The notes under the pieces are model-generated. The model did not search any database. It saw only the letters and a program-made list of their open reading frames with translations, and had not been told where the DNA came from. Of a stretch of DNA of 38,417 nucleotides, positions 20,660 through 38,417 are shown piece after piece (positions within the stretch are counted from its first letter, which is position 1; each line of letters starts with the position of its first letter). Source of the stretch: Candidatus Zixiibacteriota bacterium (GTDB lineage Bacteria; Zixibacteria; MSB-5A5; DG-27); NCBI GenBank assembly GCA_030605835.1, contig JAUWHO010000010.1, forward strand, positions 1-38,417, given 5' to 3'. The translations under genes were made by a program, and so were the position numbers.

Positions 20660-23269
20660 ATGCCCTTGAAAACTGTCAAGCTTCCCAAGTGGGGGCTGCT
20701 GGTGGTCTTTCTGACTGCCGTCTTGCTCGTAGGGGGCACCTATGCGAAAACCATCTACAAGCAGGTGGAGGTCTACCCCCCGACTAAGGAGGATTTGAAG
20801 GAGTTCTTGCGGATGGGATTCGACCCCTCGGATGCGATGATATACGACGAGGGCAGAAGGGTGGTAGTGCCCTTAAACGACCGCGAGATGGAGCTTCTGA
20901 AATCAAGTGGTCTGGAATACCGGGTCTTGATCGAGGATCTGGAAAGCTACTACAGCTCCCAGTTCCTGGTGACCGCTGACATGGGGCCCTACACCTCCTT
21001 TTCGGAGATGGTCGATTCTCTGACCAACCTCCACAATCACCATCCCAACATCACCACCGATCTGATTGTCCTCGGCTATGGTCATGACGGCAACGAAGTT
21101 TACGCCATGAAGATCTCCGACAACCCGAACCTGCAGGAGGACGAACCGGAGGCACTTTACACCGGGCTGCATCACGCCAGGGAACCGATCTCCATGGAGA
21201 ACATTCTCTACTTCATGGCCTATCTCTGCAACAACTACGGAAGCGACCCGGACGTCACCTATCTGGTGGACAACCGCCAGCTGTGGTTCATACCTTGTCT
21301 CAATCCGGACGGTTATCTCTACAACGAGCTGACCAATCCCAGTGGGGGCGGGATGTGGCGGAAGAACCGTCGCGACAACGGCGGGGGAGTCTACGGCGTC
21401 GACCCGAATCGCAACTACGGTTACATGTGGGGATACGACAACCGCGGCTCCAGTCCCTATACCTGGTCGGACACCTATCGCGGCCCTTACGCCTTTTCAG
21501 AGCCGGAGAATCAGGCGGTGAGAGATTTCGCTTTGGAGCACGACTTCTCGGTGGCCATGAATGACCACACCCACGGCTACTACTTCCTCCTCCCCTGGGG
21601 ATACGAGGATATCTTCTGTGAGGAGCACGAGATGTTCAGAGGCATCGGAGAGGAGGCCGTCAGCCTGCTCTCACCTGGCAACTACGATCTGGGTACTGCG
21701 TGGCAGTGTCTTTACAACGTCAATGGGGAGGCTAACGACTGGTACTTCCACGATCTTGGAACCTTCGCCTACACTCCGGAGATCGGGGAATCTTTCTGGC
21801 CCGGCGGCTCAAGAATCCTGCCCCTCTGCGAGGAGATGCTGCCGGTCAATCTCTTCTTCGCTGAGATTGCCGACAATCCCTGGCAGATGATGAGAGTGTG
21901 GGCGCCCACCATCGATCCTCTCGGAAGCCAACCGAGCGGCAACTACACCGTCAGCTGGACTCTCCCCGGCGGTGACCTCTATCCGGACAAATACGAGCTG
22001 CAGGAGATGACCGGACCCTCTACTATCACCGACGATGCCGAGTCCGGTTCCGACAACTGGGTCTTCAAGAATTTCTCCCGGTCGAGCTCTCGTTCCTACA
22101 GTGGCAGCTATAGCTTCTGGTCCGGCTATCAGAACAGTTACAATGCCACCACGACCTCCCTGGTCCCCTTTAGGGTACAAAGCGGCACCCAGCTCAGCTT
22201 CCGTTTGTGGTATAGGATAGAGTCCGGCTACGACTTCGGCTTTGTGGAAGTCTCCACCGACGGCCACGACTGGGAAGTCTTGGACAGCTTCACCGGAACC
22301 AACACCTCCTGGCCTTTAAAGACCTACAACCTTAGCTCTTACGCCGGCCAGAATCTGTTCGTCCGTTTCCGTCTGGACACCGACATCGGATCTACCAGCT
22401 ACGGAATGTATGTTGACGACATCCACCCGGTCGACATTTTCGATAACGTCATCACTCTCTCCGACAACATCACCGAAAACTATTACGATGTCACCGGCAG
22501 AACTCCCGGAACCTACTATTATCAGGTCCGGGGCCACAACCGCACCGGCTGGGGCAATTTCTCGCCTCGGGAGGAAGCGATCGTAACCCAGGGCGCACTG
22601 GTTACCATTGAGCTCACTCCTCATCAATACTACGTTGCCCGCGGCGAGAGACTGACTTACACTGCGGAGGCCACTAACCAAACCGGCCAGTCCCAGTCCT
22701 TCGATTACTGGGCTATGGTGACCTTGCCCAACGGCAACCCCTACGGTCCCGTTTACGGACCCAAGAACTATAGTCTGAGCCCCCACCAGAGCGGCCAGGG
22801 AACCGTGGGCAAGAGAGTCCCCATGGGAGCACCTATTGGCGTCTACACTTACACCGGCAACGTGGGAGATTATCCTGACGATGTCTGGGACTCAGATGAG
22901 TTCGACTTCGAGGTGACCGGAAAGGCCGGCGCCACATCTGGCTCCAATGAGTGGGAAGTGGTCTACACCGACGGATTCTGGGGGAGCAGTCAGGAGGCCT
23001 TGCCGAAAGAGTTCGCTCTCTCAGGCAACCATCCCAATCCCTTCAACGCCCGGACGGTAATTGAGTATCAGTTGCCTGTAAGTGGTCACGTCAAGCTCGA
23101 AATATACAACCTCTTCGGACAAAAGCTTGAAACTCTGGTGGATACCGAGCAGGAGGCTGGATACCGGTCAGTTAGCTGGGATGCTTCAGAGGTCTCCTCC
23201 GGTCTCTATTTCTACAAGCTGACTGCTGGAGACTTCACCGAAGTTAAGAGCATGACCTTGCTGAGATAG
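20660..23269 (+). CDS. Secreted M14 zinc carboxypeptidase with C-terminal sorting domain (paralogue A)
   Basis: An 869-residue exported metallopeptidase that should remove C-terminal residues from peptides outside the cell. A signal peptide (1-29) precedes a propeptide-like region. The M14 domain (about 105-400) keeps the zinc ligands His172 and Glu175 (HHAREP), His303 (NDHTHGYYF), the Arg-rich substrate site (WRKNRR, DPNRN) and the catalytic Glu374 (TPEIGESFWPG). Next come an immune-inhibitor-A/MAM-like beta-sandwich (about 450-600; DDAESGSDNW), a fibronectin-like strand set, a diverged Ig-like domain (about 645-755) and the T9SS type A-like sorting domain (about 780-869; FALSGNHPNPFN, GLYFYKLTAGDFTE). 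GGAGCA precedes the ATG. Paralogue B follows in tandem. Confidence 0.94.
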   Translation: MPLKTVKLPKWGLLVVFLTAVLLVGGTYAKTIYKQVEVYPPTKEDLKEFLRMGFDPSDAMIYDEGRRVVVPLNDREMELLKSSGLEYRVLIEDLESYYSSQFLVTADMGPYTSFSEMVDSLTNLHNHHPNITTDLIVLGYGHDGNEVYAMKISDNPNLQEDEPEALYTGLHHAREPISMENILYFMAYLCNNYGSDPDVTYLVDNRQLWFIPCLNPDGYLYNELTNPSGGGMWRKNRRDNGGGVYGVDPNRNYGYMWGYDNRGSSPYTWSDTYRGPYAFSEPENQAVRDFALEHDFSVAMNDHTHGYYFLLPWGYEDIFCEEHEMFRGIGEEAVSLLSPGNYDLGTAWQCLYNVNGEANDWYFHDLGTFAYTPEIGESFWPGGSRILPLCEEMLPVNLFFAEIADNPWQMMRVWAPTIDPLGSQPSGNYTVSWTLPGGDLYPDKYELQEMTGPSTITDDAESGSDNWVFKNFSRSSSRSYSGSYSFWSGYQNSYNATTTSLVPFRVQSGTQLSFRLWYRIESGYDFGFVEVSTDGHDWEVLDSFTGTNTSWPLKTYNLSSYAGQNLFVRFRLDTDIGSTSYGMYVDDIHPVDIFDNVITLSDNITENYYDVTGRTPGTYYYQVRGHNRTGWGNFSPREEAIVTQGALVTIELTPHQYYVARGERLTYTAEATNQTGQSQSFDYWAMVTLPNGNPYGPVYGPKNYSLSPHQSGQGTVGKRVPMGAPIGVYTYTGNVGDYPDDVWDSDEFDFEVTGKAGATSGSNEWEVVYTDGFWGSSQEALPKEFALSGNHPNPFNARTVIEYQLPVSGHVKLEIYNLFGQKLETLVDTEQEAGYRSVSWDASEVSSGLYFYKLTAGDFTEVKSMTLLR

Positions 23270-23292
23270 AGTTCTTGAATTCCTTGAACAGG

Positions 23293-23325
23293 AAAGCCGT
23301 CGGAATATTTTCCGGCGGCTTTTCT
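23293..23325 (+). terminator. Intrinsic terminator after carboxypeptidase A
   Basis: AAAGCCGTCGGAA and TTCCGGCGGCTTT form a long stem with a short loop, followed by TTTCT. It is homologous to the terminator at 33204-33239; here the A run on the left is only three bases, so it should work mainly for the plus strand. Confidence 0.8.
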
Positions 23326-23376
23326 ATTCTCTCGGGATAGCTATTCCAGGACAGGAATCTCTTTCCTAAAGAGTTT

Positions 23377-23396
23377 GTCGGGCAAGAATGCCCGAC
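23377..23396 (-). repeat. GAATAG-hairpin repeat in the duplicated flank
   Basis: GTCGGGCA and TGCCCGAC form a perfect 8-bp stem with an AGAA loop (TTCT on the minus strand); on the minus strand GGAATAGG precedes it. The sister copy at 33300-33319 has one arm mismatch. Confidence 0.7.
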
Positions 23397-23398
23397 CT

Positions 23399-23445
23399 AT
23401 TCCGGTTTCCAGTTTCCGGTCCCCTGTTCCCTGTTTCCTTCTTGA
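23399..23445 (-). repeat. Purine-rich 7-8-mer array beside the aldolase relic (copy 5)
   Basis: Minus-strand units include GGAAACAG, GGGAACAG and GGGGACCG. It lies directly 3' of the aldolase-gene relic, the same relation as copy 6 to the intact aldolase gene. Confidence 0.6.
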
Positions 23446-23454
23446 GGGGCGCCG

Positions 23455-23516
23455 AGGCTGAAAAACAATCTCCTCCGCAGGGAACTCCACGGTTCCCTTA
23501 GCTCGGAACACAATCG
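23455..23516 (-). pseudogene. Relic of the 3' end of the class II aldolase-like gene
   Basis: Minus-strand translation gives IVFRAKGTVEFPAEEIVFQP, alignable to the C-terminus of the aldolase-like protein (IIAFRAKGTATFVAEQIVRQP minus its first residue). The nucleotide match extends over about 60 bp (AACAATC, CCGC, GGTTCC, TTAGC, CGGAA in order). The frame then runs on without the native stop. The upstream part of the gene is missing, so this is a fragment carried by a segmental duplication. Confidence 0.65.
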
Positions 23517-23532
23517 TAGGTCGAAAGATTGT

Positions 23533-23664: not shown

Positions 23665-26277
23665 ATGCCCTTAAGAAGTGCCAAGCTTTCCAGGTGGGGG
23701 CTGTTGGTGGTCTTTTTGATTGCCGTCTTGTTTGTGGGGGGAACCTATGCGAAAACCATCTATAAAGAGGTGGAGGTTTACCCTCCAACCAAGGAGGACT
23801 TAAAACAGTTCTTGCGGATGGGATTCGATCCCTCGGATGCGATGATATACGACGAGGGCAAAAGGGTAGTGGTTCCCTTAGACGATCGGGAGATGGAGCT
23901 TCTGAAACAAACCGGTCTGGACTACCGGGTCCTGATTGAGGATTTAGAGAAACATTACAGCTCTCAGTTCCTGGCAACCGCCGACATGGGACCCTACACC
24001 TCCTTTTCGGAGATGGTTGACTCTTTGACCAACCTCCACAATCACCATCCGGACATCACCACTGATCTGATTGTGATAGGCTACAGCCATGAAAACAACC
24101 CTGTCTACGCCATGAAGATCTCTGACAATCCCAACCAGCAGGAGGACGAACCGGAGGCCCTTTTTGAGGGAATGCAACACGCCCGGGAGCCGATCTCGAT
24201 GGAGAACCTTCTCTACTTCATGGCCTATCTCTGCAACAACTATGGCGAAGACCCGGAGGTGACCCATCTGGTGGATGAACGCCAGTTGTGGTTCATACCC
24301 TGCGTCAACCCCGATGGTTATCTCTACAACGAGCAGACCAACCCCAATGGGGGTGGTATGTGGCGCAAGAATCGCCGCAACAACGGCGGCGGCTCCTACG
24401 GCGTGGACTGTAACCGCAATTGGGGCTACAAGTGGGGATACGACAACTATGGTTCCAGTCCCGATCCCTGGTCGAATACCTACCGCGGTCCCTATGCCTT
24501 CTCGGAACCGGAGAACCAGGCCTGCAGCACCTTTGCCATGGAACACAACTTCGCCACGGTGATGGACGACCACACTTATGGTTACTACTTCCTCTCTCCG
24601 TGGTGCTATGACGACTTCTTCACCCCGGATCAGGACATGTTCGTGGGTCTCGGGGAGGAGGCGGTCGAACTGCTTCTGCCCTCCAATTACCGGCGCGGCT
24701 GTAGCTGGCAGGTGCTCTATAACTCCAACGGAAACGGCAAGGATTGGTATTACGGGAGAACGGGAGCCTTCACCTTCACCCCGGAGATCGGGGAGTCGTT
24801 CTGGCCCGGCGGTTCGCGGATCATCCCGCTGTGCGAGGAGATGCTACCGGTTAACCTTTTCTTCGCCGACGTCTGCGCCAATCCCTGGCAGATGGTAAGA
24901 GTCAGACCACCGGCTATCGATTCCCTCGGAACTGTTCCGAGTGGCAACTACACCGTCAGTTGGAACATAACCTCCGGAGATACCCTTCCCGATAAATACG
25001 AGCTTCAGGAGATGACCGGGCCTTCCACCATCACCGACGACGCCGAGTCCGGCTCCGGCAACTGGCATTTCAAGAGCTTCTCCAGATCCAGCTCCCGTTC
25101 TTACAGTGGGAATTACAGCTTCTGGTCCGGCTACGCCAACTGCTACAACGCCACCATGACCTCCATGACTCCCATCAAGGTTGAAAGTGGCACCCAGCTT
25201 AGTTTCCGCCTCTGGTATCAGATAGAGACTAACTACGATTTCGGCTTTGTGGAGGTCTCCACCGACGGTTACAACTGGGACATTTTGGATACCTATACCG
25301 GCAGCAACACCTCCTGGTCTCTGAAGACCTACAATCTAGGCTCCTACGCCGGTGAATATCTCCAGGTCCGCTTCCGCTTCGAGACCGACGCCGGATACAC
25401 CAGCTACGGGATGTACATTGACGACATATACCCGGTGGACGTTTTCGATAACGTCATCACGCTGTCGGACAATATCACCGAGGACTATTACGAGGTCACC
25501 GGCAGGACTCCGGGAACCTATTATTACCAAGTCCGGGGACACAACCGCACCGGCTGGGGCCATTACTCCCCACGGGAGGAGGTAATCGTAACTGAAGGTA
25601 CGATTGTCAGCATTGAGCTTGTCCCTGATGATCCGCCGGTTGTGGTTCCACAAGGTGGATCCTTCGGCTACACCGGCACCGTCACCAACAACACCGACGA
25701 GGTTCAATACGTCGACATCTGGATCATGGCCTACGTCCCGGGGATGGGGTGGCACGGACCCTTCAAGAACTACAACAATGTGAGATTCAGCCCCGATCAG
25801 GTCCGCAGCGCTCATCTCAACCAGAGAGTTCCCAATGTGGCACCGGTGGGAGACGGCTACCTCTATTGTGGCTACGTGGGGGACTATCCCTCCACGGTGA
25901 TAGATTCCTCCTGCTTCCCGTTCGAGGTCATCGCCGGCGTACCAACCGAAGCCGGTGAGGGCGGTTGGGTTCAGAATGGCTCATTCCTGGAGGGAGATTT
26001 CGCTGACCTTCCCTCTGAGTTTGCCCTTTCGAGCAATTATCCCAATCCCTTCAATGCCAGCACCGTGATCAGCTATGAGTTGCCGGCAACCAGTTACGTC
26101 AAGCTGGAGGTGTACAACCTCTTCGGACAGAAAGTTGCCACATTAGTGAACGGCAAACAGCAGGCAGGATACAGGTCTGTCACCTGGGATGCTTCAAAGG
26201 TTTCTTCGGGTCTCTATTTCTACAAGCTGACCACTGCTGATTTCAGTGAGACCAGGAGAATGATGCTAGCCAAATAA
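23665..26277 (+). CDS. Secreted M14 zinc carboxypeptidase with C-terminal sorting domain (paralogue B)
   Basis: An 870-residue tandem paralogue of the preceding gene, nearly identical over the first 130 residues. Zinc ligands His172, Glu175 (QHAREP) and His303 (DDHTYGYYF) and catalytic Glu374 (TPEIGESFWPG) are retained. Differences cluster around the active-site entrance (SPWCYDDFF in place of LPWGYEDIF), suggesting a changed substrate preference. The C-terminal half differs in one important way: its Ig-like domain (about 645-755; IELVPDDPPVVVPQGGSFGY) is of the type shared by the propeller and beta-helix genes downstream, not the type in paralogue A. The sorting domain ends GLYFYKLTTADFSETRRMM. 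Confidence 0.94.
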   Translation: MPLRSAKLSRWGLLVVFLIAVLFVGGTYAKTIYKEVEVYPPTKEDLKQFLRMGFDPSDAMIYDEGKRVVVPLDDREMELLKQTGLDYRVLIEDLEKHYSSQFLATADMGPYTSFSEMVDSLTNLHNHHPDITTDLIVIGYSHENNPVYAMKISDNPNQQEDEPEALFEGMQHAREPISMENLLYFMAYLCNNYGEDPEVTHLVDERQLWFIPCVNPDGYLYNEQTNPNGGGMWRKNRRNNGGGSYGVDCNRNWGYKWGYDNYGSSPDPWSNTYRGPYAFSEPENQACSTFAMEHNFATVMDDHTYGYYFLSPWCYDDFFTPDQDMFVGLGEEAVELLLPSNYRRGCSWQVLYNSNGNGKDWYYGRTGAFTFTPEIGESFWPGGSRIIPLCEEMLPVNLFFADVCANPWQMVRVRPPAIDSLGTVPSGNYTVSWNITSGDTLPDKYELQEMTGPSTITDDAESGSGNWHFKSFSRSSSRSYSGNYSFWSGYANCYNATMTSMTPIKVESGTQLSFRLWYQIETNYDFGFVEVSTDGYNWDILDTYTGSNTSWSLKTYNLGSYAGEYLQVRFRFETDAGYTSYGMYIDDIYPVDVFDNVITLSDNITEDYYEVTGRTPGTYYYQVRGHNRTGWGHYSPREEVIVTEGTIVSIELVPDDPPVVVPQGGSFGYTGTVTNNTDEVQYVDIWIMAYVPGMGWHGPFKNYNNVRFSPDQVRSAHLNQRVPNVAPVGDGYLYCGYVGDYPSTVIDSSCFPFEVIAGVPTEAGEGGWVQNGSFLEGDFADLPSEFALSSNYPNPFNASTVISYELPATSYVKLEVYNLFGQKVATLVNGKQQAGYRSVTWDASKVSSGLYFYKLTTADFSETRRMMLAK

Positions 26278-26329
26278 CCGTGCTTGGGGGTGGGGTTCAG
26301 TCCCTGCCCTCCGCGATTCGGAGGTATTT

Positions 26330-28179
26330 GTGATGAAAAGAGAAAACCTCTTGACGATCGTTCTGGGTCTGCTGTTGGTGTCAACAGCGGTCGCCGTTGA
26401 ACCGGGCGATACCCTGTGGACACGCACCTACGGGGGGAGTGACCTTGATTATGGTTATTCCGTCCAACAGACCGCTGACAGCGGGTATATCATCGCCGGC
26501 ACCACCAAATCCTTCGGCGCCGGTAATTATGATTTCTACCTGCTGAAAACTGACCCTTTAGGCGATACTGTCTGGACCCGCACCTACGGCGGGAGCGACC
26601 TGGACTATGGCTATTCCGCGGTACAGACCACTGACGGCGGGTATGCCGTTGTCGGCAGGACCAAGAGCTTCGGTGCAGGCAATTACGATGTCTACCTGGT
26701 GAAAACCGATGCTAACGGTGATACTACCTGGACGCGCACCTACGGCGGGGGTGACCGTGATGAAGGCCAATCAGTCCAACAGACACCGACGGCGGGTATA
26801 TTATCGCTGGCTACAACGACCCCTGGGGCACAGGTATTATGGATGTCTACCTGGTGAAGACCGATGCTCAGGGCGGTGTCTTGTGGACACGCACCCATGG
26901 ACCGGAGGATGACTATGAGTGTGCTTACTCCGTCCAGCAGACCGTTGACGGCGGCTATATCGTCACCGGTAGTACCGCTTCCTCCCAGACAGGCGATACA
27001 GATCTTTACTTGCTGAAGACCGACGCCAACGGCGATAGCCTGTGGGCACACACCTACGGAGGCGACCAATGGGATGAAGGCTATTCGGTCCAACAGACCG
27101 CAGACGGGCAGTACATCGTCGCTGGCTATACCGAATCCTTCGGTGCGGGCAGCATGGATTTCTACCTGTTGAAGATCGATACCGATGGCGATACCCTCTG
27201 GACACGCACCTACGGCGGCAGCGGCCGCGATGAAGGTCGGTCAGTGCACCAGACTACTGACCGTGGGTATATGATCGCCGGTTATAGCTGGTCCTTCGGC
27301 GCCGGCCAGTCTGATTTCTATCTGGTCAAGACCGATGCCAACGGCGATACCCTCTGGACACACACCTACGGGGGGACTCGCTGGGACTATGGTCGTTCCG
27401 TCCAGCAAACCATTGACGGTGGGTATATCGTTACCGGTTATACGGATTCGTTCGGGGCAGGCGAGAAGGACCTCTACCTATTGAGAATTGCTGGCCAAGC
27501 CCCGGAACCCGATGTCTCAATCGAGATAATACCTGATGATCCTCCTCCGGTGACGGTGCCTCAAGGTGGAAGATTTGGCTTTACCGGAACCTTGACCAAC
27601 AACACCGAGGAGCCCCAGGTTACCGATGTGTGGACGATGGCGGTCGGGCCGGAGAAAGCAGTTTACGGACCATTCAAGGAGTTTCACAATCTGGGGCTTG
27701 CGCCTTACCAGACCCGCACCGCTCACTTCAGTCAGCGCGTCGCTAATCTGGCGCCTTTGGGATTCTATGACTACATCGCCTACTGCGGGGATTATCCCTC
27801 GATGGTGGTTGATTCCTCCTTCTTCCAGATAGAGGTTGTTGAGGGTGTTGGGTCAAGCCAAGGCGGCTGGGTCCTGACCGGGTCCTTCCTGGAAGGAGAT
27901 GTGGCAGATATCCCCTTCGAGTTTGCACTCCTGAGCAATTACCCCAATCCCTTCAATGCCGGCACCGTGATCAGCTACGAGCTTCCGACAACCGCTCACG
28001 TCAAGCTGGGAGTATACAACCTCCTCGGCGAGATGGTTGCGACTCTGGTGAATGGAGTGGAGGAAGCAGGCTACAAGTCGGTCACCTGGGATGCTTCTGA
28101 GGTCTCCTCCGGCATCTATTTCTACAAGCTGGCCGCTGGAGACTTCACCGAAACCAAGAGGATGATACTGGTGAAGTAA
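26330..28179 (+). pseudogene. Secreted seven-repeat propeller protein A, split by a one-base frameshift
   Basis: Two frames (26330-26857 and 26839-28179) are one gene. A base is missing near 26780-26790: the sequence reads CAGACACCGAC where the repeat demands CAGACCACCGAC. Restoring it gives a 616-residue protein (the intact paralogue at 31319 has 619). It has a signal peptide (about 1-22) and seven repeats of about 51 residues with the pattern GDTLWTRTYGG, SVQQTxDGGYIxAGYT, SFGAG and YLVKTDAN, which suggests a seven-bladed beta-propeller. An Ig-like domain (VSIEIIPDDPPPVTVPQGG) and a sorting domain (NYPNPFN, GIYFYKLAAGDFTE) follow. GGAGG precedes the ATG. The frameshift may be real or a sequencing error. 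Confidence 0.85.
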
Positions 28180-28224
28180 CATTCACAACAGATTAAGCAG
28201 ATTAAACAGATTTCACACTCACTG

Positions 28225-29443: not shown

Positions 29444-31270
29444 ATGAAAAGGTCAGTGTTTTTCACAGTTCTAGTATCAGCGGTCCTCTTATTGCCGCTG
29501 ACGGCTTCTGCCACCATCATCAACATCCCCGAGGACTATCCCACCATACAGGAGGGGATAGACCACGGGGCGGACGGTGACACCGTCCTGGTGCAGCCCG
29601 ACACTTACTTTGAGAACCTTAACTTCAACGGGCATAATGTGGTCTTAGCCTCGCTGTTTTTGATGACCGGGGATACAGCTTATGTATCCAGCACCATAAT
29701 CGACGGAAACCAAGAGACTTCGGTCATTATCTTTGAAAGCGGCGAAGACAGCACCGCGCAGGTCGTGGGATTCACAATTCAGAATGGATCTGCCGAGAAC
29801 GGGGGCGGGATTTACTCGGTGAGCTCTGACCCCACGATAACCAACAACAGAATTAGCGGAAATTCAGCTGTCAATTACGGCGGCGGGATTTATTGCCTTG
29901 AGTCCGATGTCAGCATCACCGACAACACAATCAGTGAAAATTTGGCCGGTCCCCGTGGTGGTGGAATACATTGTGAGGGTATTTCAAACATAACAATAGC
30001 TAACAACACCATCAGCGGTAATACCGCTATGCAATTACCCAGTTTGGGCCACGGCGCCGGGATTTCCTGCAAAGATGGTCCTGTTGTCACCATCAGCGAA
30101 AATGACATCAGCGGAAATTACGCCTACGTGGCGGCCGGCGGAATCTGGAGCAATTGCAACAGCACCATTGTAAAAAACACCATCACCGGAAATATAGCCG
30201 AAAAAAATAACGGCGGCGGGATTGCTTGCTTCTACGCCTTTGAGGTCATCAACAACACCATCACACGAAATTCGGTTGCAGACCTGGGCACCGGCGGTGG
30301 GATTTTCAGTAGTCGTGCCACTCCGATCGTGACCAACACTATCGTGTATGAGAATTATGCCCCGCCCGGGTACCAGGATGAACTTGCAGGCACCTTCGTA
30401 GTCACCTATAGCGACATTAAAGGCGGCTGGTCAGGAACCGGAAATATCGATGAGGACCCACTTTTCGTCGATCCCGGAAACGGAGACTTCCACTTGCAGT
30501 GGGGTTCACCCTGCATAGATGCGGGTGACCCCGCATCCCCTCTGGACCCCGACGGCACCAGAGCTGACATTGGCGCGTTGTACTTCCACCAAGCCATTCT
30601 CTCCATCGAGATAATAGCTGATGATCCTCCTCCGGTGACGGTGCCTCAAGGTGGCAGCTTTGGCTTCACCGGAACCCTCACCAACAATAGCGAGGATCCC
30701 CAGGTTACTGACGCCTGGACGATGGCTGTTGGCCCGCAAAAGGAAACTTACGGCCCATTCAAGGACTTGAGCAATCTAGAGCTGGGACCCTATGAGACCC
30801 TCAGCGCTCACTTCTATCAGCGGGTGCCAAATCTCGCGCCTTTGGGATTCTACGACTATATCGCCTACTGCGGAGATTACCCCTCCACGGTGATGGATTC
30901 CTCCTTCTTCCAGGTTGAGGTGATCGCTGGTGCATCCAGCGGCGGAGAGGATTTAGGCTGGGTTCTCACCGGCTCTTTCTCGGAGGGAGAGTTTACTGAT
31001 CTTCCTTCCGAGTTTGCGCTTTTGAGCAACTATCCTAATCCGTTCAACGCCCAGACGGTAATCAGCTATGAGTTGCCGGTAAGCGGCCACGTCAGACTGG
31101 AGGTATACAACCTCTTCGGACAGAAGGTGGCCACGCTGGTAGATAGGCAACAAGAGCCGGGTTACAAATCTATGACCTGGGATGCCTCCGAGATCTCCTC
31201 GGGTCTTTACTTCTACAAGCTCACCGCCGGAGACTTCAGCGAAAGCAAGAGGATGATCCTAGTCAAGTAA
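29444..31270 (+). CDS. Secreted right-handed beta-helix protein with C-terminal sorting domain
   Basis: A 608-residue exported protein. A signal peptide (1-23) is followed by a parallel beta-helix (about 26-385) opening with INIPEDYPTIQEGIDHGADG, the usual cap of the pectate-lyase-like/DUF1565 families. About eight coils carry repeats such as NTISGNTA and GGGIYC, and the helix ends with DPLFVDPGNGDFHL and SPCIDAGDP. Such proteins bind or cleave polysaccharides, but no lyase catalytic triad can be assigned by eye. The Ig-like domain (about 383-500; IEIIADDPPPVTVPQGGSFG) and sorting domain (about 520-608; NYPNPFN, GLYFYKLTAGDFSE) are nearly the same as in the two propeller proteins. Confidence 0.92.
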   Translation: MKRSVFFTVLVSAVLLLPLTASATIINIPEDYPTIQEGIDHGADGDTVLVQPDTYFENLNFNGHNVVLASLFLMTGDTAYVSSTIIDGNQETSVIIFESGEDSTAQVVGFTIQNGSAENGGGIYSVSSDPTITNNRISGNSAVNYGGGIYCLESDVSITDNTISENLAGPRGGGIHCEGISNITIANNTISGNTAMQLPSLGHGAGISCKDGPVVTISENDISGNYAYVAAGGIWSNCNSTIVKNTITGNIAEKNNGGGIACFYAFEVINNTITRNSVADLGTGGGIFSSRATPIVTNTIVYENYAPPGYQDELAGTFVVTYSDIKGGWSGTGNIDEDPLFVDPGNGDFHLQWGSPCIDAGDPASPLDPDGTRADIGALYFHQAILSIEIIADDPPPVTVPQGGSFGFTGTLTNNSEDPQVTDAWTMAVGPQKETYGPFKDLSNLELGPYETLSAHFYQRVPNLAPLGFYDYIAYCGDYPSTVMDSSFFQVEVIAGASSGGEDLGWVLTGSFSEGEFTDLPSEFALLSNYPNPFNAQTVISYELPVSGHVRLEVYNLFGQKVATLVDRQQEPGYKSMTWDASEISSGLYFYKLTAGDFSESKRMILVK

Positions 31271-31273
31271 GAG

Positions 31274-31300
31274 TGATTTGGGGTGCGGTTCAGTCCGCGC
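31274..31300 (+). repeat. TTC-centred hairpin in the propeller B leader
   Basis: GGGGTGCGG and CCGCGCCCC flank TTCAGT. The propeller A leader has the related GGGTGGGG-TTCAGT-CCCTGCCC at about 26287-26310. Both sit between the upstream stop codon and the start ATTTGTGATG/GTTTGTGATG, so the leader hairpin is conserved while its arms have changed. Confidence 0.55.
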
Positions 31301-31318
31301 CCCTGACAACAATGCGAG

Positions 31319-33178
31319 GTGTTTGTGATGAAAAGAGTCCTCATTTCAGCGTTAATCCTAGTTCTGCTATTTGCGTCAACGGCGCTTGCCCAGGAACCGG
31401 GCGATACCTTGTGGACACGCACATACGGGGGGAGTGCCACGGACTACTGCTATTGCGTCCAGCAGACCTCCGATGGCGGATATGTCGTCGCTGGCTATAC
31501 CGATTCCTTCGGTGCAGGTGGTAGGGATTTCTACCTGGTGAAGACCGATGCCAACGGTGATACCCTGTGGGCACGTACGTATGGAGGCAGTGCCACCGAC
31601 TATGGCTACTCCGTCAAGCAGACCTCCGATGGCGGGTATATCATCGCTGGCTATACCGATTCCTTCGGTGCAGGTTATGAGGATGCATACCTGGTGAAGA
31701 CCGACGCCAACGGCGATACCTTGTGGACACGTACGTACGGCTGGAGCACTGGCAAGGAAAGGGCTCACTGCGTCCAGCAGACCTCCGATGGCGGGTATAT
31801 CATCGTCGGCTATACCTATTCCTACGAAACCTATCATTACGATTTCTACCTGGTGAAGACCGACGCCAACGGTGATGCGCTGTGGACACGTACGTACGGG
31901 GGCAGTGGCACCGAGAAGGCTGAATCCGTTCAGCAGACCACTGACGGCGGCTACATCGTCGCTGGCTATACCAGTTCCTTCGGGGCAGGTCTGGTCGATG
32001 CCTGGCTTGTCAAGATCAGTGCCAACGGCGATTTTCTCTGGGCACAGAGTTACGGCGGGGCTGGCTGGGATTACGCTTACTCCGTTCAGCAGACCACTGA
32101 CGGCGGGTATATTCTCGCTGGCTATGAAGATTCCTTCGGTGCCGGCGGTAAGGACGTCTGGTCGATCAAAACCGACACTTACGGCGATACTCTATGGACC
32201 CGCACCTATGGCGGGAGCGGCGATGATAGGTCTTACTCCAGCCAGCAGACGACCGACGGCGGATACGCCATCGCCGGCTGTACCAACTCCTTCGGAGCAG
32301 GTGGCTTTGACGTGTGGCTGATCAAGACCGATGCCGACGGTGATACCTCGTGGACACGTACCTACGGAGGGAGTGCCAGCGATAGAGCTGAATGCGTCCA
32401 GCAGACCAGCGACGGCGGGTATATCGTGTCTGGCGCAACCTCTTCTTTCGGTGGAGGTGGTAACGATTTCTGGCTGTTGAGAATGGTTGGCGAAGCACCG
32501 CAACCGGACGTCTCCATCGAGATAATACCTGATGATCCTCCAGTGACAGTGCCGCAAGGTGGCAGCTTTGGCTTCACCGGAACCCTGATCAACAATACCG
32601 AGGATCCCCAGATAACGGATGCCTGGACCGTCGCCATCGGGCCGCAGAAAGAAGTCTATGGGCCCTTCAAGGAGTTCTACGACTTTTACCTTGATCCCGG
32701 GGAAACCCGTAGTGCCCACTTCAATCAGCGTGTGCCTAATCTGGCGCCTTTGGGATTCTACGACTATGTTGCCTACTGTGGGGATTACCCTTCGACCGTG
32801 GTCGATTCCTCCTACTTCCAGATTGAGGTTGTGGCTGGGCCGCTAACCAAAGCTGGTGAGGCCGGTTGGGTTCTCACCGGGTCGTTCCTGGAGGGAAAGT
32901 CCAGTGAGCTTCCCTGCGAGTTTGCCCTTTCAGGCAACTACCCCAACCCCTTCAATGCCAGCACCGTGATCAGCTACGAGCTTCCGGTGAGCGGTCATGT
33001 CAAGCTGGAGGTATACAACCTCTTCGGACAGAAGGTGGCCACGTTAGCAAACAGCAAACAGCATTCAGGATACAGGTCAGTCGTGTGGGATGCCTCGGAG
33101 GTCTCTTCCGGCCTCTATTTCTACAAGCTCACTGCCGGAGATTTCACCGAGGTCAAAAGGATGACCTTGCTGAGATAA
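31319..33178 (+). CDS. Secreted seven-repeat propeller protein B with C-terminal sorting domain
   Basis: A 619-residue intact paralogue of the frameshifted gene at 26330. After a signal peptide (1-24) there are seven consecutive repeats of 51-53 residues (about 28-388), each with GDTLWTRTYGGS, VQQTSDGGYIIAGYT, SFGAG and a YLVKTDAN-like strand. The count suggests a seven-bladed beta-propeller adhesin or binding scaffold; repeats of this type are common in FCB-group surface proteins. An Ig-like domain (about 395-505; VSIEIIPDDPPVTVPQGGSF) and a sorting domain (about 530-619; FALSGNYPNPFN, GLYFYKLTAGDFTE) complete it. An alternative in-frame Met at 31325 lies closer to GAGG. It is the last gene of the island, before a bidirectional terminator. 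Confidence 0.93.
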   Translation: MFVMKRVLISALILVLLFASTALAQEPGDTLWTRTYGGSATDYCYCVQQTSDGGYVVAGYTDSFGAGGRDFYLVKTDANGDTLWARTYGGSATDYGYSVKQTSDGGYIIAGYTDSFGAGYEDAYLVKTDANGDTLWTRTYGWSTGKERAHCVQQTSDGGYIIVGYTYSYETYHYDFYLVKTDANGDALWTRTYGGSGTEKAESVQQTTDGGYIVAGYTSSFGAGLVDAWLVKISANGDFLWAQSYGGAGWDYAYSVQQTTDGGYILAGYEDSFGAGGKDVWSIKTDTYGDTLWTRTYGGSGDDRSYSSQQTTDGGYAIAGCTNSFGAGGFDVWLIKTDADGDTSWTRTYGGSASDRAECVQQTSDGGYIVSGATSSFGGGGNDFWLLRMVGEAPQPDVSIEIIPDDPPVTVPQGGSFGFTGTLINNTEDPQITDAWTVAIGPQKEVYGPFKEFYDFYLDPGETRSAHFNQRVPNLAPLGFYDYVAYCGDYPSTVVDSSYFQIEVVAGPLTKAGEAGWVLTGSFLEGKSSELPCEFALSGNYPNPFNASTVISYELPVSGHVKLEVYNLFGQKVATLANSKQHSGYRSVVWDASEVSSGLYFYKLTAGDFTEVKRMTLLR

Positions 33179-33203
33179 GCTCTCAGGATTCATTAGACAC
33201 GCA

Positions 33204-33239
33204 AAAAAGCCGTCGGAGCTCTCCTCCGGCGGCTTTTCT
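33204..33239. terminator. Bidirectional intrinsic terminator between propeller B and the aldolase gene
   Basis: AAAAGCCGTCGGAG and CTCCGGCGGCTTTT form a long stem; the plus strand ends in TTTTCT and the minus strand in six T. It can stop both convergent transcripts. A homologous but weaker copy follows carboxypeptidase A. Confidence 0.85.
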
Positions 33240-33299
33240 ATTCCCTCGGGATGGTTACTCTAGGATAGGAATCTCTTTCCTAGGATTGTCAGAGAGTTT

Positions 33300-33362
33300 G
33301 TCGGGCAAGAATACCCGACCTATTCCGGTCTCCTGTTTCCTCTCACCTGTTCCCTGTTACCT
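33300..33362 (-). repeat. GAATAG hairpin plus purine array at the aldolase 3' end (copy 6)
   Basis: On the minus strand, 14 bp after the aldolase stop, units GGTAACAG, GGGAACAG and GGAAACAG lead into GGAATAGG and the hairpin GTCGGGTA/TGCCCGAC (33300-33319, one mismatch). This is the whole composite element in its usual position downstream of a gene. Confidence 0.7.
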
Positions 33363-33375
33363 CTTTAGAGTATCA

Positions 33376-34461
33376 TCAAGGCTGGCGAACAATCTGTTCC
33401 GCAACAAACGTCGCGGTTCCTTTAGCGCGGAAGGCAATTATGAATTCCCCTGCTTTCTCGTAAGCCAAATCGGCGATCTTTTCTAAATGTTTTTTAGGTA
33501 GATCGTCGATCTCTTGCTTGAATTGCCTATTGGCAAATTTCATGTCCTTTCCGGCTTTCTTTGCCCATTTTCCCATCTCCTCCACCAGATCCTGAGGTAA
33601 CCCTTGGTGGGCGACATTTTGCCACTCGGTGCCGACGTTCCCCTTCCTGATTCCGTAGTCTGCAAATCTCCCTAAAAGGTGAGGCGGCGTCCCGGTGATG
33701 CCGTGCTGGGCGATGCGGATCCCATCATCTTTGATGGCCTCGTAAATCTCGCCGGTTCGCTCCAGGTCGATGAATATCTTTTCTCCCTCCAGATAGTTTC
33801 CGTGCTTGGAGCCGTTGTTTATCGCCAGGAGATTGGGCAAGATATCGTTTTCCTTCAGTCCGTTGATGAAAGAGGTGGCCTCTTCGACGGTGGTGATCTC
33901 ACCTTCACTTCCTGCAGATTTTATCTCCCCGACCTCCACCTCCAGCCCCATGTTAAGGTCGACCACGTGTTTTGCCAATCGAGAGGTAACGGTGATGTTG
34001 TCCTCCAGTTCATTGAAGGAGGCATCGATGGCAAAGGAGGTGTACCCGGCATCAATTTCGGCTTTCAGCAACTCCTCGGTCTCAGCTATCTCCTCTTCTC
34101 TGTTAGTTTTCACAGTGAGATGATCTCCGTGGATGAAGAAGGGGTCGGTGTAGTTGAGCCTCTCGGCGTAGTCAGCGACAGCCTCGAAGAAATCTGCAGG
34201 GGTCATCCCAGTGTAACCACCTTGAAGATTGCACTCTGATTTGGCCAACTCGTAAGCGACCACGGCCTCCAGCTCCTTCGCCGCCCTCATAATCCCGGGG
34301 ATGACGTGCTTGATGCGAGTATTACACGCCATCACTATGCAGGCTTGATCTTTGAGGGCATTGAAAATGAGCTTGGAAGAGAGCAGGCAGACCTTGCTTT
34401 TTGAGCCGACTTTCTCCTTTATACGATCCGGCCTTAGATCTAACAGTTTCCTCTGTAACAT
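33376..34461 (-). CDS. Class II fructose-bisphosphate aldolase-like protein
   Basis: A 361-residue zinc-dependent aldolase homologue. Class II signatures are present: FIHGDHLTVK (zinc and catalytic His/Asp), SFAIDAS, GLEVEVGEIKS, LAINNGSKHGNY and IAQHGITGTP, the last two being the zinc-histidine and phosphate-loop regions. It is a diverged branch (class IIA enzymes read HxD at the first motif and VHGGSG-like at the last), so the substrate may not be fructose-1,6-bisphosphate. A piece of its 3' end is duplicated at 23455-23516. It converges with propeller B. Confidence 0.85.
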   Translation of the reverse strand: MLQRKLLDLRPDRIKEKVGSKSKVCLLSSKLIFNALKDQACIVMACNTRIKHVIPGIMRAAKELEAVVAYELAKSECNLQGGYTGMTPADFFEAVADYAERLNYTDPFFIHGDHLTVKTNREEEIAETEELLKAEIDAGYTSFAIDASFNELEDNITVTSRLAKHVVDLNMGLEVEVGEIKSAGSEGEITTVEEATSFINGLKENDILPNLLAINNGSKHGNYLEGEKIFIDLERTGEIYEAIKDDGIRIAQHGITGTPPHLLGRFADYGIRKGNVGTEWQNVAHQGLPQDLVEEMGKWAKKAGKDMKFANRQFKQEIDDLPKKHLEKIADLAYEKAGEFIIAFRAKGTATFVAEQIVRQP

Positions 34462-34520
34462 AATTTCCCTACTTTCGAAACTTGTTATCCTGTGGAAAAC
34501 CCTATGTCGGTGAAAAAACC

Positions 34521-34540
34521 AGGGTAGCCCAGTGGCCTCT
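34521..34540. repeat. Copy of a 19-bp word shared with 8404-8422
   Basis: AGGGTAGCCCAGTGGCCTC occurs exactly at 8404-8422 and at 34521-34539, both intergenic on the plus strand and both followed by a palindromic stretch. Part of the word (GGGTAGCCC) is itself an imperfect palindrome. It is probably a fragment of another interspersed repeat. Confidence 0.5.
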
Positions 34541-34563
34541 GCCGCTGGGAATTCTCTATCAAA

Positions 34564-35247
34564 TTAGATATAACCTTTCAAATAAGCAAGAACCACCGCA
34601 TAGAGTAATGTCGGCAAGAGATTCGCCACTTTGATTTTCTTAATCTCAAGAAGCTGGAGACCTATCCCGACGATCAAAAGCCCGCCTGCTGCCGACATCT
34701 CGTTTATGATATTCTCCCGCAGGAGAAACTGCAGTTGACCTCCCAGCAGTGTCAAACTTCCTTGAAAGAACAGCACTGTAAGGAACGAGAAAAGAACCCC
34801 GATTCCCAAGCCCGAGGAAAGGATCAATGAGGCGAAACCATCGAGGACAGATTTGATGTAGAGCAGGTCGGCTTTTCCCGACATCCCGTCCTCCAGAGAA
34901 CCGACAATTGTCATCGGGCCAACACAAAAAAGAAGCGAAGCGGAAACGAATCCCAAAACGAAATTCCCCGACTCCGATTTGACTCTCCTTCTTAGATACT
35001 CGCCCACCTTTTCTAACGCCTCTTCGATTTTCAAAAGCTCCCCGGTAATTCCACCCAGGACTAAGCTCCCAATCAAGATCAGGACACTCTCGGTCTTCAG
35101 CGCCATCTGAATGCCGAGTAGTATCGTGACCAGGCCCATTGCTTGCAGGACGATTCTCTTGATGTTCTCCGGCAGCCTGTGTCCGACCCAGAGACCGATA
35201 CCGGAGCCGACAATGACGGTGGCAGTATTTACGAGGGTTCCCTTCAT
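34564..35247 (-). CDS. DUF554-family membrane protein
   Basis: A 227-residue polytopic membrane protein of the DUF554 (YdfK/YqgA-like) family with unknown transport or channel function. Family hallmarks are the start MKGTLVNTATVIVGSGIGLW, GHRLPENIKRIVLQAMGLVT, the central FCVGPMTIVGSLEDG and the C-terminal GGLLIVGIGLQLLEIKKIKVANLLP. Six or seven membrane segments are visible. It lies alone between intergenic palindromes. Confidence 0.92.
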   Translation of the reverse strand: MKGTLVNTATVIVGSGIGLWVGHRLPENIKRIVLQAMGLVTILLGIQMALKTESVLILIGSLVLGGITGELLKIEEALEKVGEYLRRRVKSESGNFVLGFVSASLLFCVGPMTIVGSLEDGMSGKADLLYIKSVLDGFASLILSSGLGIGVLFSFLTVLFFQGSLTLLGGQLQFLLRENIINEMSAAGGLLIVGIGLQLLEIKKIKVANLLPTLLYAVVLAYLKGYI

Positions 35248-35289
35248 TACCTTCTCAAGGTGAAATTGCGCCTATCCTGATTTACCGGT

Positions 35290-35354
35290 GGCGGTGACAA
35301 ATTCACCGCCCTATGCCAGCCTATCTGTTGGTTGCGGACGCCCTCGTCCGTAAC
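35290..35354. repeat. Two adjacent hairpins of the interspersed family
   Basis: GGCGGTGA/TCACCGCC (35290-35310, loop CAAAT with the TTC edge) and GTTGCGGACG/CGTCCGTAAC (35331-35354, loop CCCT, one mismatch). The second resembles the sequence at 8268-8282 (GGATGCCCTCATCC). Confidence 0.6.
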
Positions 35355-35360
35355 CTGCAC

Positions 35361-36620
35361 TTAGACGTGTTTCCTCGGATCCGTGATTTTTCCCTCTACC
35401 GCCGAAGCCGCTACCGTCGCCGGGCTGCAGAGATAGACTTCTGCGCCTTTCCCAAGTTTGGCGAGGAAATTCCGGTTGGAGGTCGAAAGCAAAATGTCCC
35501 CTTTACCCAAGACTCCATGATGACCGGCGGTGCAGAGTGAACAACCGGGATTTGCCACCATCGCCCCGACATCCATGAAGATCTCGTAGAGCTCTTCCTT
35601 CAACATCTGCCGCGCAACCTCCATCGTCGCCGGAACGACTATCAGCCTGACATCGGGATGAATTTTCCCGGCCTTCCTTATGATTTCTGCGGCTACTTTG
35701 AAATCCTCGAAACGCCCGTTGGTGCAACTGCCGATGAAACCCTCGTTGAAGAAACGCCCCTCCACCTCCTCCACCGGGACGACGTTGTCCGGCGTGTGAG
35801 GGCAGGCAATCTGGGGAACCAAACCCTTGACCTCAATCTCAATCTCTTCTTGATATGAAGCATCCTTATCCGATTCCACGATCGAGATTTCGCCACATCT
35901 CTCTTTCAAGAAGTCCAGCGTCTCCCCTGTCGGTTTGATGAAAAGGATTTTGCCGTTAGCCTCCGTCAGCATACTACCTAAGGTCAATCGTCCCGCCAGG
36001 GAGAGATTGTCAATCGTCTCCCCGTAATACTCCACCGATTTATAGTTCAGCTTATCGGTGCCGATCTCCTTGAGGAGTTTTAAGGTCAAATCCTTCGCCG
36101 AGGTTGGCTTTTTGTATTGCCCTTTGACGGTGATCTTGATCGTATCGGGCACCCGGAACCACAACTGCCCGGAATGCCAGACGGCAACAACATCAGTCGT
36201 TCCCGCTCCGGAGGCAAACGAGCCGACTGCTCCCAAGAGGTTCATATGACTGTCAGTGCCGACCACCACCGAACCGGGCCTAATCATCCCCCTCTCTAAG
36301 AGGACATGTTGCCCAATGCCAGTATTGACGTCGAAGAGGTTTTTGATCCCCTGCTTTTTGGCGAACTCCCGACAGAGAGCTTGATTCTGGGCAACTTTCA
36401 GGTCTTTGGCGGGGGCCTGATAGTCGAAGGTCATGGCGATCTTATCGGGGTCTTTCACCTTGCCGCCGTTGGTGAATTTTTCGAACTCCAAAACCACATT
36501 AGGGCCGCCGAAATCCCTGACCACCGCCATATCGATCTCTGCCCAGACGCGATCTTGTGTCTTGACCTCCTGTTTGGAGGCTCTAGCGAGGATCTTTTCA
36601 ATTACAGTTTTTCCAGCCAT
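35361..36620 (-). CDS. Aconitase-superfamily large subunit (3-isopropylmalate dehydratase/homoaconitase type)
   Basis: A 419-residue large subunit of the LeuC/HacA type, an iron-sulfur dehydratase that isomerises a hydroxy-acid. Iron-sulfur ligand regions are present: VVGTDSHMN, FIGSCTNGRFEDF (first Cys) and ANPGCSLCTAGHHG (the Cys pair). These enzymes need a small subunit (LeuD/HacB), which is not in the window. The gene is divergent from the citryl-CoA lyase-like gene, each with its own promoter. The actual substrate (isopropylmalate, homocitrate, citrate or another) cannot be decided from sequence. Confidence 0.88.
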   Translation of the reverse strand: MAGKTVIEKILARASKQEVKTQDRVWAEIDMAVVRDFGGPNVVLEFEKFTNGGKVKDPDKIAMTFDYQAPAKDLKVAQNQALCREFAKKQGIKNLFDVNTGIGQHVLLERGMIRPGSVVVGTDSHMNLLGAVGSFASGAGTTDVVAVWHSGQLWFRVPDTIKITVKGQYKKPTSAKDLTLKLLKEIGTDKLNYKSVEYYGETIDNLSLAGRLTLGSMLTEANGKILFIKPTGETLDFLKERCGEISIVESDKDASYQEEIEIEVKGLVPQIACPHTPDNVVPVEEVEGRFFNEGFIGSCTNGRFEDFKVAAEIIRKAGKIHPDVRLIVVPATMEVARQMLKEELYEIFMDVGAMVANPGCSLCTAGHHGVLGKGDILLSTSNRNFLAKLGKGAEVYLCSPATVAASAVEGKITDPRKHV

Positions 36621-36713
36621 GTTTGCTCACACTTTCTTATCAATGAAATCTTCTATTAACAACCGTCGAATGTGGGCATGAAACAGCACCGTGAATAACT
36701 TCCAAATCGCTTC

Positions 36714-36742
36714 AATAAAAGTGATTGTTCTCTTCCTGTCAA
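36714..36742 (-). promoter_or_regulatory. Promoter of the dehydratase gene, TTGACA-17-TTTATT
   Basis: On the minus strand a consensus -35 TTGACA (36737-36742) and -10 TTTATT (36714-36719) are separated by 17 bp, about 95 bp before the ATG. Confidence 0.55.
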
Positions 36743-36809
36743 TTTGTAAATAGAGGTCAGGAGGACGGTCGCCACGTGGCACAGTGACTACAAGCAAAAA
36801 GCACCGCTA

Positions 36810-36838
36810 TTGACACCTGATGGAGGTCGATTTATTAT
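36810..36838 (+). promoter_or_regulatory. Promoter of the citrate synthase-like gene, TTGACA-17-TATTAT
   Basis: Consensus -35 TTGACA (36810-36815) and -10 TATTAT (36833-36838) with a 17-bp spacer. The predicted transcript starts about 25 nt before the coding sequence and includes the GGAGG at 36861-36865. Confidence 0.75.
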
Positions 36839-36870
36839 GGTTCGGAACTTAAAAAGCTTAGGAGGTAAAA

Positions 36871-37638
36871 TTGGCTACCGAGAAATGGCCGACTGCAATA
36901 ACCGATATCGAACCCGGCAAAATCCGTCTGCGAGGTTACGACATCACCGAGTTGATGGAGAAACTGACCTTCGCCCAGACGATCTTTCTGACCCTGAGGG
37001 GGGAGTTGCCCAATGACGCCGAAGCCAAGATGATGGAGGCGATCCTGGTCTCCTCCGTTGACCACGGGGTGACACCACCTTCAGTCTTGGCGGCTCGAAC
37101 CGTGGCTTCCGGCGGCAATCCCTTGAACGCCGCCGTCGCCGCCGGGGTTTTGGCGATCGGGGATGTCCACGGCGGCGCCATCGAGCAATGCGCCAGGATA
37201 TTGCAGGAGTGGGCTTCGAAAGACGAGGAAGTGGGCAAGTTAGGTGCCGAGCTGGTCAGAGAGTTTTTGTCAAAGAAGAAAAGGCTACCCGGCTTCGGGC
37301 ACCGTCTGCACACCACCGACCCTCGGACGGTAAAGCTTTTCGAAATTGCCGATGAATTAAACTTCGCCGGTCGCCATATGCAGCTGGCCAGGGAGGCGGA
37401 AAAACAGTTCGAGATTCAGAAGGGAACGAAGCTGCCAATCAACGTCGACGGCGCCATCGGAGCGGTCATCTCTGATATGGGCTTCGACTGGAGATTGGGA
37501 AAAGGGTTTTTCATACTCTCCCGGGTAGCAGGCTTGATCGCCCACATCTACGAGGAGACCACCAGGTTCAGGCCGATGCGCCGCTTGGGGGACACCAACT
37601 ACGAATACGACGGCCCCGCCCCTCGCAAAATAGGATAG
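36871..37638 (+). CDS. Short citrate synthase-family enzyme, probably citryl-CoA lyase
   Basis: A 255-residue member of the citrate synthase fold, far shorter than true citrate synthases (about 370-430 residues) but close to citryl-CoA lyase of reverse-TCA bacteria, which splits citryl-CoA into acetyl-CoA and oxaloacetate. The catalytic residues are conserved: HGGA (GDVHGGAIEQ), GFGHRLHTTDPR and NVDGAIGAVISDMGF (Asp). The start is TTG at 36871, set by GGAGG five bases upstream. A consensus promoter lies directly upstream. The neighbouring aconitase-type gene suggests citrate or isopropylmalate chemistry. A citryl-CoA synthetase gene is not seen here, so the direction and substrate are open. 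Confidence 0.85.
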   Translation: MATEKWPTAITDIEPGKIRLRGYDITELMEKLTFAQTIFLTLRGELPNDAEAKMMEAILVSSVDHGVTPPSVLAARTVASGGNPLNAAVAAGVLAIGDVHGGAIEQCARILQEWASKDEEVGKLGAELVREFLSKKKRLPGFGHRLHTTDPRTVKLFEIADELNFAGRHMQLAREAEKQFEIQKGTKLPINVDGAIGAVISDMGFDWRLGKGFFILSRVAGLIAHIYEETTRFRPMRRLGDTNYEYDGPAPRKIG

Positions 37639-38062
37639 CTGTTTTTCACCGGGATTTGAACCTCTCTGCATTTTCCACTCAGGGCTGTTTTTGAAAGATC
37701 TGAATTTGGATGTGGCCTGGTAGCAGGAAGCTTTAGCTTTCCACAAGTTAAACAAGTCAACGGCACTCGCCTCTCAGCTTCTGTGAATGACGCCATCCGT
37801 AGTGGCTGGGATTCATCCCACGAGAAATCGGGGTAGGAGTTCAACTCCCACCTCAGCGACAGAGGGGGGCGAGAGTCCAACTCTCGCCCCAGCAAAAAAG
37901 CGATGAGTACCAGTAGCGTTCTTGCGCTACAAGCAGGTCCTTGCTCTACTTGAGCAGGTTCATCTTCTTCGTCAACGTGTTATCGCCGACGGTGAGCTTG
38001 CAGAAGTGGACACGCATCAATCTCGTATGACCATTTGTCCAAAAATGATAAATCGGGGAGGG
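37639..38062. other. Intergenic region with three hairpins
   Basis: No gene is seen. It has TGGGAT/ATCCCA around TC (37807-37820), GGTAGGAGTT/AACTCCCACC (about 37832-37852) and a perfect 11-bp stem GGGGCGAGAGT/ACTCTCGCCCC with a CCA loop (37866-37890). The remainder (37891-38062) is unassigned. Confidence 0.6.
37866..37890. repeat. Perfect 11-bp hairpin of the interspersed family
   Basis: GGGGCGAGAGT and ACTCTCGCCCC with a CCA loop, next to a second hairpin of the GGAGTTCAACTCC type. It is followed by AGCAAAAAAG, so it could serve as a minus-strand barrier for the downstream convergent gene. Confidence 0.6.
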
Positions 38063-38417
38063 TTAAATATGGAATTCCACCACGTCCCCGTCACAGAGAA
38101 CATAGTCCTTCTGGACCTTCTGTCCGTCGTAAACCTTCTTGCCCCAGATGCGAGCGCAACTGAGCTTCTCGGCGAAATCCTTGTGGATCTCACGAGCCAT
38201 ATCTAAAACGTTCTCTCCCCTCTTCAAGATTACCGGGTCTTCGTAATCCGGCTCCTTGCCGGGCGACTTGGTGTAACAGCGAATGATCTGCAGAAGCTCC
38301 AGCACCCCGGCCTTGAACTCCCCCAGGTTCACTAACTTCTCCACTGAGATCGGTATTATGGGAAACTTCTCATGAAAGAACTCCCTCAACATCTCAAGAT
38401 TATCACCACTGTCGAGG
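38063..38417 (-). CDS. C-terminal TGS domain of a DRG/Obg-type GTPase (partial)
   Basis: The frame is open to the window edge, so this is the 3' end of a larger gene. The visible 117 or so codons match the C-terminus of DRG-family GTPases: PIIPISVEKLVNLGEF, the linker IIRCYTKSPGKEPDYEDP, then the TGS domain (VILKRGENVLDMAREIHKDF, ARIWGKKVYDGQKV, LCDGDVVEFHI). TGS domains bind RNA or partner proteins in ribosome-associated GTPases. The G domain should lie beyond position 38417. DRG-like proteins are mainly archaeal and eukaryotic but occur in several uncultured bacterial phyla. Confidence 0.85.
   Translation of the reverse strand, partial: LDSGDNLEMLREFFHEKFPIIPISVEKLVNLGEFKAGVLELLQIIRCYTKSPGKEPDYEDPVILKRGENVLDMAREIHKDFAEKLSCARIWGKKVYDGQKVQKDYVLCDGDVVEFHI

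Follow-up and report, generated by a model that had tools for sequence, protein, structure and literature searches.

The window analysed here is one complete contig of 38,417 bp from a 2.68-Mb draft genome of a Zixibacteriota bacterium, which is 96% complete. It contains an island in which two carboxypeptidase genes, CpA and CpB, are followed by the propeller gene propA (26330-28179), a TrmB-like regulator, a beta-helix protein (29444-31270), a second propeller gene, propB, and a minus-strand aldolase-like gene. The open reading frame of CpA (20660-23269, plus strand) encodes an M14 zinc carboxypeptidase with a MAM-like domain and a C-terminal sorting domain (Pfam Peptidase_M14, InhA-like_MAM and Por_Secre_tail). 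Its paralogue CpB (23665-26277, plus strand) is mostly 76-88% identical to it at the nucleotide level up to residue ~640 and about 50% identical thereafter (0.85 falling to 0.54), where CpB continues into a propeller-type Ig/sorting region. This sharp difference (22580-23269 against 25585-26277) indicates that one of the two genes exchanged its whole Ig/sorting region.

A second internal duplication relates 25625-28165, comprising the CpB tail and propA, to 30617-33164, comprising the tail of the beta-helix gene and propB, with 71% identity over 2.6 kb. propA is read in two overlapping frames (26330-26857 and 26839-28179), the likely result of a frameshift or an assembly error. The sorting region has probably been a site of repeated recombination within the island. 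propB (31319-33178, plus strand) was defined from its open reading frame, Pfam domains and tail comparison; it now lies beside the aldolase gene and bears the 3' end that is resident there.

The sequence directly behind CpA, 23270-23513, matches 33179-33438 behind propB, a stretch of about 240 bases found at two places about 10 kb apart. BLASTN aligns window positions 23008-23513 with 32917-33437 (396/522 identical, 76%, with 17 gaps; E=2e-103) in a single unbroken alignment, which runs from the end of the sorting domain through the terminator, CTCGGGAT, AGGAATCTCTTTCCTA, a hairpin, CCTATTCCGG and a pyrimidine array into the tail of the aldolase gene. The initial annotation had described the CpA 3' flank as repeating the propB flank in the same order, and this continuous alignment bears it out; the peptides quoted there are also correct on re-translation.

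The similarity extends significantly beyond the terminator and hairpin. Against 1000 dinucleotide shuffles, the terminator part on its own scores 35 (null 8.6 +/- 1.6), the spacer part from CTCGGGAT to TTCCTA scores 21 (7.8 +/- 1.9) and the aldolase tail scores 29 (7.8 +/- 1.5, maximum 15), each above every shuffle. The spacer carrying CTCGGGAT and AGGAATCTCTTTCCTA (23326-23369) is locus-specific, being matched in the genome only at propB, and a whole-genome search found the propB flank as the only other place with a full-length match to the block. When the propB end is compared with the genome, the matches of nearly all other sorting genes break off 14 bases ahead of the stop codon, or near or at it, and CpA alone runs on through the terminator and spacer.

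Two elements within the block are dispersed repeats. The GTCGGGCA hairpin (23377-23396), recognised by its fold, has ~15 similar places in the genome, the pyrimidine array (23406-23440) has many, and taken together the two recur at about 45 places. Both are present at the CpA and propB flanks, and the hairpin joined to CCTATTCC is found in the genome at these two flanks only. The nearest relative compared, candidate division Zixibacteria bacterium DG_27 (LIZU01000001.1; same genus, 52% complete draft), has neither the hairpin nor the array at its aldolase junction. Because they are dispersed genome-wide, the two elements are not independent evidence of duplication and on their own have little weight; it is the remaining parts of the block that count. 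Their dispersal is also the one point in favour of the idea that the similarity is a chance string of repeats that gathered behind sorting-domain genes. That idea is scarcely credible, since the whole block occurs at two places only and the piecewise shuffles and whole-genome searches together rule out such an origin.

The aldolase part of the block identifies its source. The intact gene (33376-34461, minus strand) encodes a class II fructose-bisphosphate aldolase-like protein (Pfam F_bP_aldolase, E=4e-33) that is 91% identical in DG_27, and a genome search found it to be the single member of this family in its own genome, which excludes a second aldolase as the origin of the copy. It is paired with a DUF554-like gene, often together with an aconitase-like gene, across many Zixibacteriota (33376-36620 in the window), and the conservation of this pairing suggests a shared pathway. 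Behind CpA, 23452-23513 (minus strand) retains the last ~20 aldolase codons, as seen from alignment, shuffles and translation, so that ~62 nt of the aldolase 3' end are contained in the copy; the duplicated block did take in the C-terminus of the neighbouring gene, as had been proposed.

The translation of this stub, IVFRAKGTVEFPAEEIVFQP, corresponds to the ending IAFRAKGTATFVAEQIVRQP of the intact gene. Its stop codon is gone, in-frame stops lie just upstream and there is no gene body. With DG_27 as the third sequence, the changes specific to the stub are distributed 3, 3 and 2 over codon positions 1, 2 and 3 in a small sample of 54 sites, compared with 1, 0 and 2 for the intact aldolase and 1, 1 and 7 for DG_27 over the same sites. 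An even spread over codon positions together with the loss of the stop codon is what is expected of a pseudogene fragment. The stub thus combines significant partial homology, an intact source gene, a lost frame and, over the 54 sites, no sign of purifying selection, and the aldolase part of the block is probably a non-functional, decaying remnant. The IVxQP ending common to the stub and the intact gene appears in none of the relatives' aldolase tails that were read, DG_27 included, and the outgroup tails proved too diverged to polarise the changes in the stub.

The direction of copying is indicated by DG_27, in which the comparison covers the aldolase side; the carboxypeptidase region lies outside this draft, so the comparison bears on neither CpA nor CpB. 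DG_27 is syntenic with 33390-38417, with aldolase, DUF554-like, aconitase-like and citrate-synthase-like genes at 83-87% nucleotide identity, and at the aldolase 3' end it has a sorting-domain gene that ends in TEVKRMTLLR* and has the same terminator stem behind it. The junction of sorting-gene end, terminator and aldolase is therefore present outside the source genome, which makes the CpA side the copy.

The DG_27 contig begins inside this junction gene, and the comparison is limited to its C-terminal region. There the gene's nearest match is propA, at 78% over 469 bp and as much as 93% in 60-nt windows, and the two have the two-residue deletion EVVEGVGSSQGGW in common. propB is the better match in the last ~20 codons only, with 0.81 in the final window, where propA reaches 0.69. 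The proposal of the initial annotation that the propeller B/aldolase junction is ancestral consequently holds in part: the single aldolase, the synteny with DG_27 and the stub changes beyond third positions support the aldolase side as the source, but an ancestral propeller B body is not supported, as the DG_27 gene has a propeller-A-type Ig/sorting region and resembles the propeller B/CpA kind in its last codons and flank only. The safe statement is that the ancestral unit consists of the 3' end, the terminator and the aldolase gene, and that different gene bodies have been joined to this end. At least three gene bodies carry one and the same junction end: propeller B, CpA and the DG_27 gene, which has a propeller-A-type region.

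Among relatives, the arrangement of an aldolase beside a sorting gene was found in DG_27; in the other Zixibacteriota families inspected, DUF554 adjoins the aldolase and the nearest sorting domain on the 3' side is, where there is one, kilobases distant, none being directly adjacent. The reverse order of events, in which CpA stood beside the aldolase first and the segment from CpB to propB was later inserted between them, splitting off the tail, would account for the same resident 3' end on CpA and propB. It is improbable, given the propeller-A-type sorting gene at the aldolase of DG_27 and given that a plain insertion leaves no second copy of the spacer and aldolase tail.

The copied terminator stem (23290-23325, plus strand; -29.1 kcal/mol, z -8.1) aligns with the source-side stem at 33205-33237, which was identified from fold and sequence, and plus-strand folding is good for the CpA, propB and DG_27 stems alike. 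The bases before the stem are AGGAAA at CpA, AAAAAA at propB and GAAGAG in DG_27. The DG_27 junction beside an intact aldolase also lacks an A run, so a gain at propB is as likely as a loss at CpA, and the earlier suggestion that the fossil-side terminator had lost this run is not upheld. The copied stem, predicted from its fold, may serve as the terminator of CpA.

At the right-hand junction between the copied block and the CpB 5' region (23514-23522), aldolase homology ends at 23513, and from about 23522 onwards the sequence aligns with the CpA 5' region. The CpB and CpA 5' regions are clearly related near the start codon and marginally so in the distal part (p 0.002-0.004), and at the junction the two parents resemble each other only weakly, in TGC(C/T)TT(C/T)T. 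Such a layout fits a tandem duplication, and it would also arise from a one-sided copy ending anywhere in the CpB 5' region. At the left end, a changepoint scan finds 54/108 neutral mismatches in the coding end and 11/77 in the flank, a drop that makes the copied flank look younger than the paralogous genes. The shift lies near the terminator, so the scan gives no support to a left boundary within the sorting domain.

An alternative is a single tandem duplication from the carboxypeptidase 5' region to the aldolase C-terminus that made CpA, CpB and the fossil at once, the present order having come about later by deletion and insertion through sorting domains. The meeting of the aldolase homology with the start of the CpA/CpB 5' homology speaks for it, and the divergence of the fossil tail (73% identity between the CpA and propB sides) is compatible with such an older date. 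Against it, divergence in the 3' spacer (77% identity without the dispersed elements, 85% to the right of the terminator) is clearly lower than at the CpA/CpB fourfold sites (58%) or in the 5' flanks (53% with MAFFT, 74% in a gap-rich alignment), whereas between species the junction spacer and the aldolase fourfold sites agree (63% against 62%). The ranking places the 3' block below the gene bodies and 5' flank in divergence, with the fossil tail intermediate, and the distal 5' homology is marginal; a single duplication is on balance unlikely.

Dating by neutral divergence gives conflicting readings among spacer, fossil tail, fourfold sites and 5' flanks, and the young look of the block could come from selection on the terminator or from homogenised dispersed elements. 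The presence of the hairpin and array at both flanks, but not in DG_27, points to copying after the two species had split, unless DG_27 lost these elements. That the copy is younger than the CpA/CpB split can be proposed from these comparisons with low confidence.

The reading preferred here, with a probability of roughly 0.85, is that 23270-23513 copies the 3' junction at which a sorting-domain gene meets the aldolase-like gene, and that this copy sits at the end of CpA and carries a decaying aldolase stub. How its two ends formed we infer as follows. The left end would have arisen by recombination between the paralogous 3' ends of CpA and of the sorting gene then beside the aldolase; the sorting domains are homologous there, the divergence changepoint however falling near the terminator, outside the sorting domain. 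The right end would lie inside the aldolase C-terminus, joined illegitimately to the CpB 5' region. Both could have been made in one step of homology-facilitated illegitimate recombination, or by a tandem duplication of ~10 kb, reaching from the 5' region of CpB into the aldolase C-terminus, with a later collapse between CpA and the first of the propB copies.

Sorting-gene ends elsewhere in the genome offer a lead, though not proof, on whether ends are swapped more generally. CpA has 142 matches in the genome, mostly in the C-terminal region. For the tail comparison 60 sorting-gene ends were taken by region from the genome, and among the 65 ends compared, 28 pairs have flank sequence in common, in register, beyond the stop codon; the last 30 nt are 0.81 identical in these pairs, against 0.68 +/- 0.12 in the others. 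Three loci (L108, L118 and L146) have ~440 bp of 3' flank in common, 87-89% identical and reaching into the start of the following gene, and in L118 and L146 the last ~60 coding bases are also common, at 95%. Duplicated next genes account for part of this sharing, as does the short dispersed TTCACAGCAGATTAA element found immediately behind the stop codons of several genes with sorting domains (28180-28210; L117, L119, L134 and L166). It is tentatively suggested that sorting-domain genes form a dispersed recombination substrate, in which genes exchange their 3' ends, terminator and flank included, as blocks, islands of secreted proteins grow and pieces of core genes are captured.

Within this repeat-rich island of an uncultured phylum the block serves as a marker of direction, and it indicates that sorting-gene 3' ends can move with their flanks and take pieces of core genes along. 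Gene order and the type of C-terminal domain therefore do not count as independent evidence when orthology is judged in such islands. A literature search found no papers on Zixibacteria together with the term 'sorting domain'. The case alone leaves known mechanisms unchanged, and nothing in it calls for a new type of mechanism; it is an ordinary but clear trace of recombining secretion-tag genes.

Like a truncated pseudogene at the edge of a segmental duplication, the aldolase stub is a partial copy with start and stop missing, unconstrained change and a duplicated flank; it differs in comprising ~20 codons only and in having a flank from a different gene family, with recombination probably guided by the paralogous ends of that family. 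Homology-facilitated illegitimate recombination is a known one-sided mechanism (PMC3240628) and has been proposed for arrays of T6SS immunity and orphan genes in V. cholerae (PMC5361080). The present locus would agree with it in having one putatively paralogous end, one end apparently without homology and a leftover gene piece downstream, whereas here the process is inferred from one genome and from paralogous loci ~10 kb apart. In Porphyromonas gingivalis, surface proteins that have repeats in common are reported to undergo domain rearrangement, described as strain variation (PMC5266723). The two systems are alike in that repeated parts of exported proteins serve as recombination substrates, and they differ in that the exchange here is between paralogues of one draft genome and carried the end of a foreign gene along.
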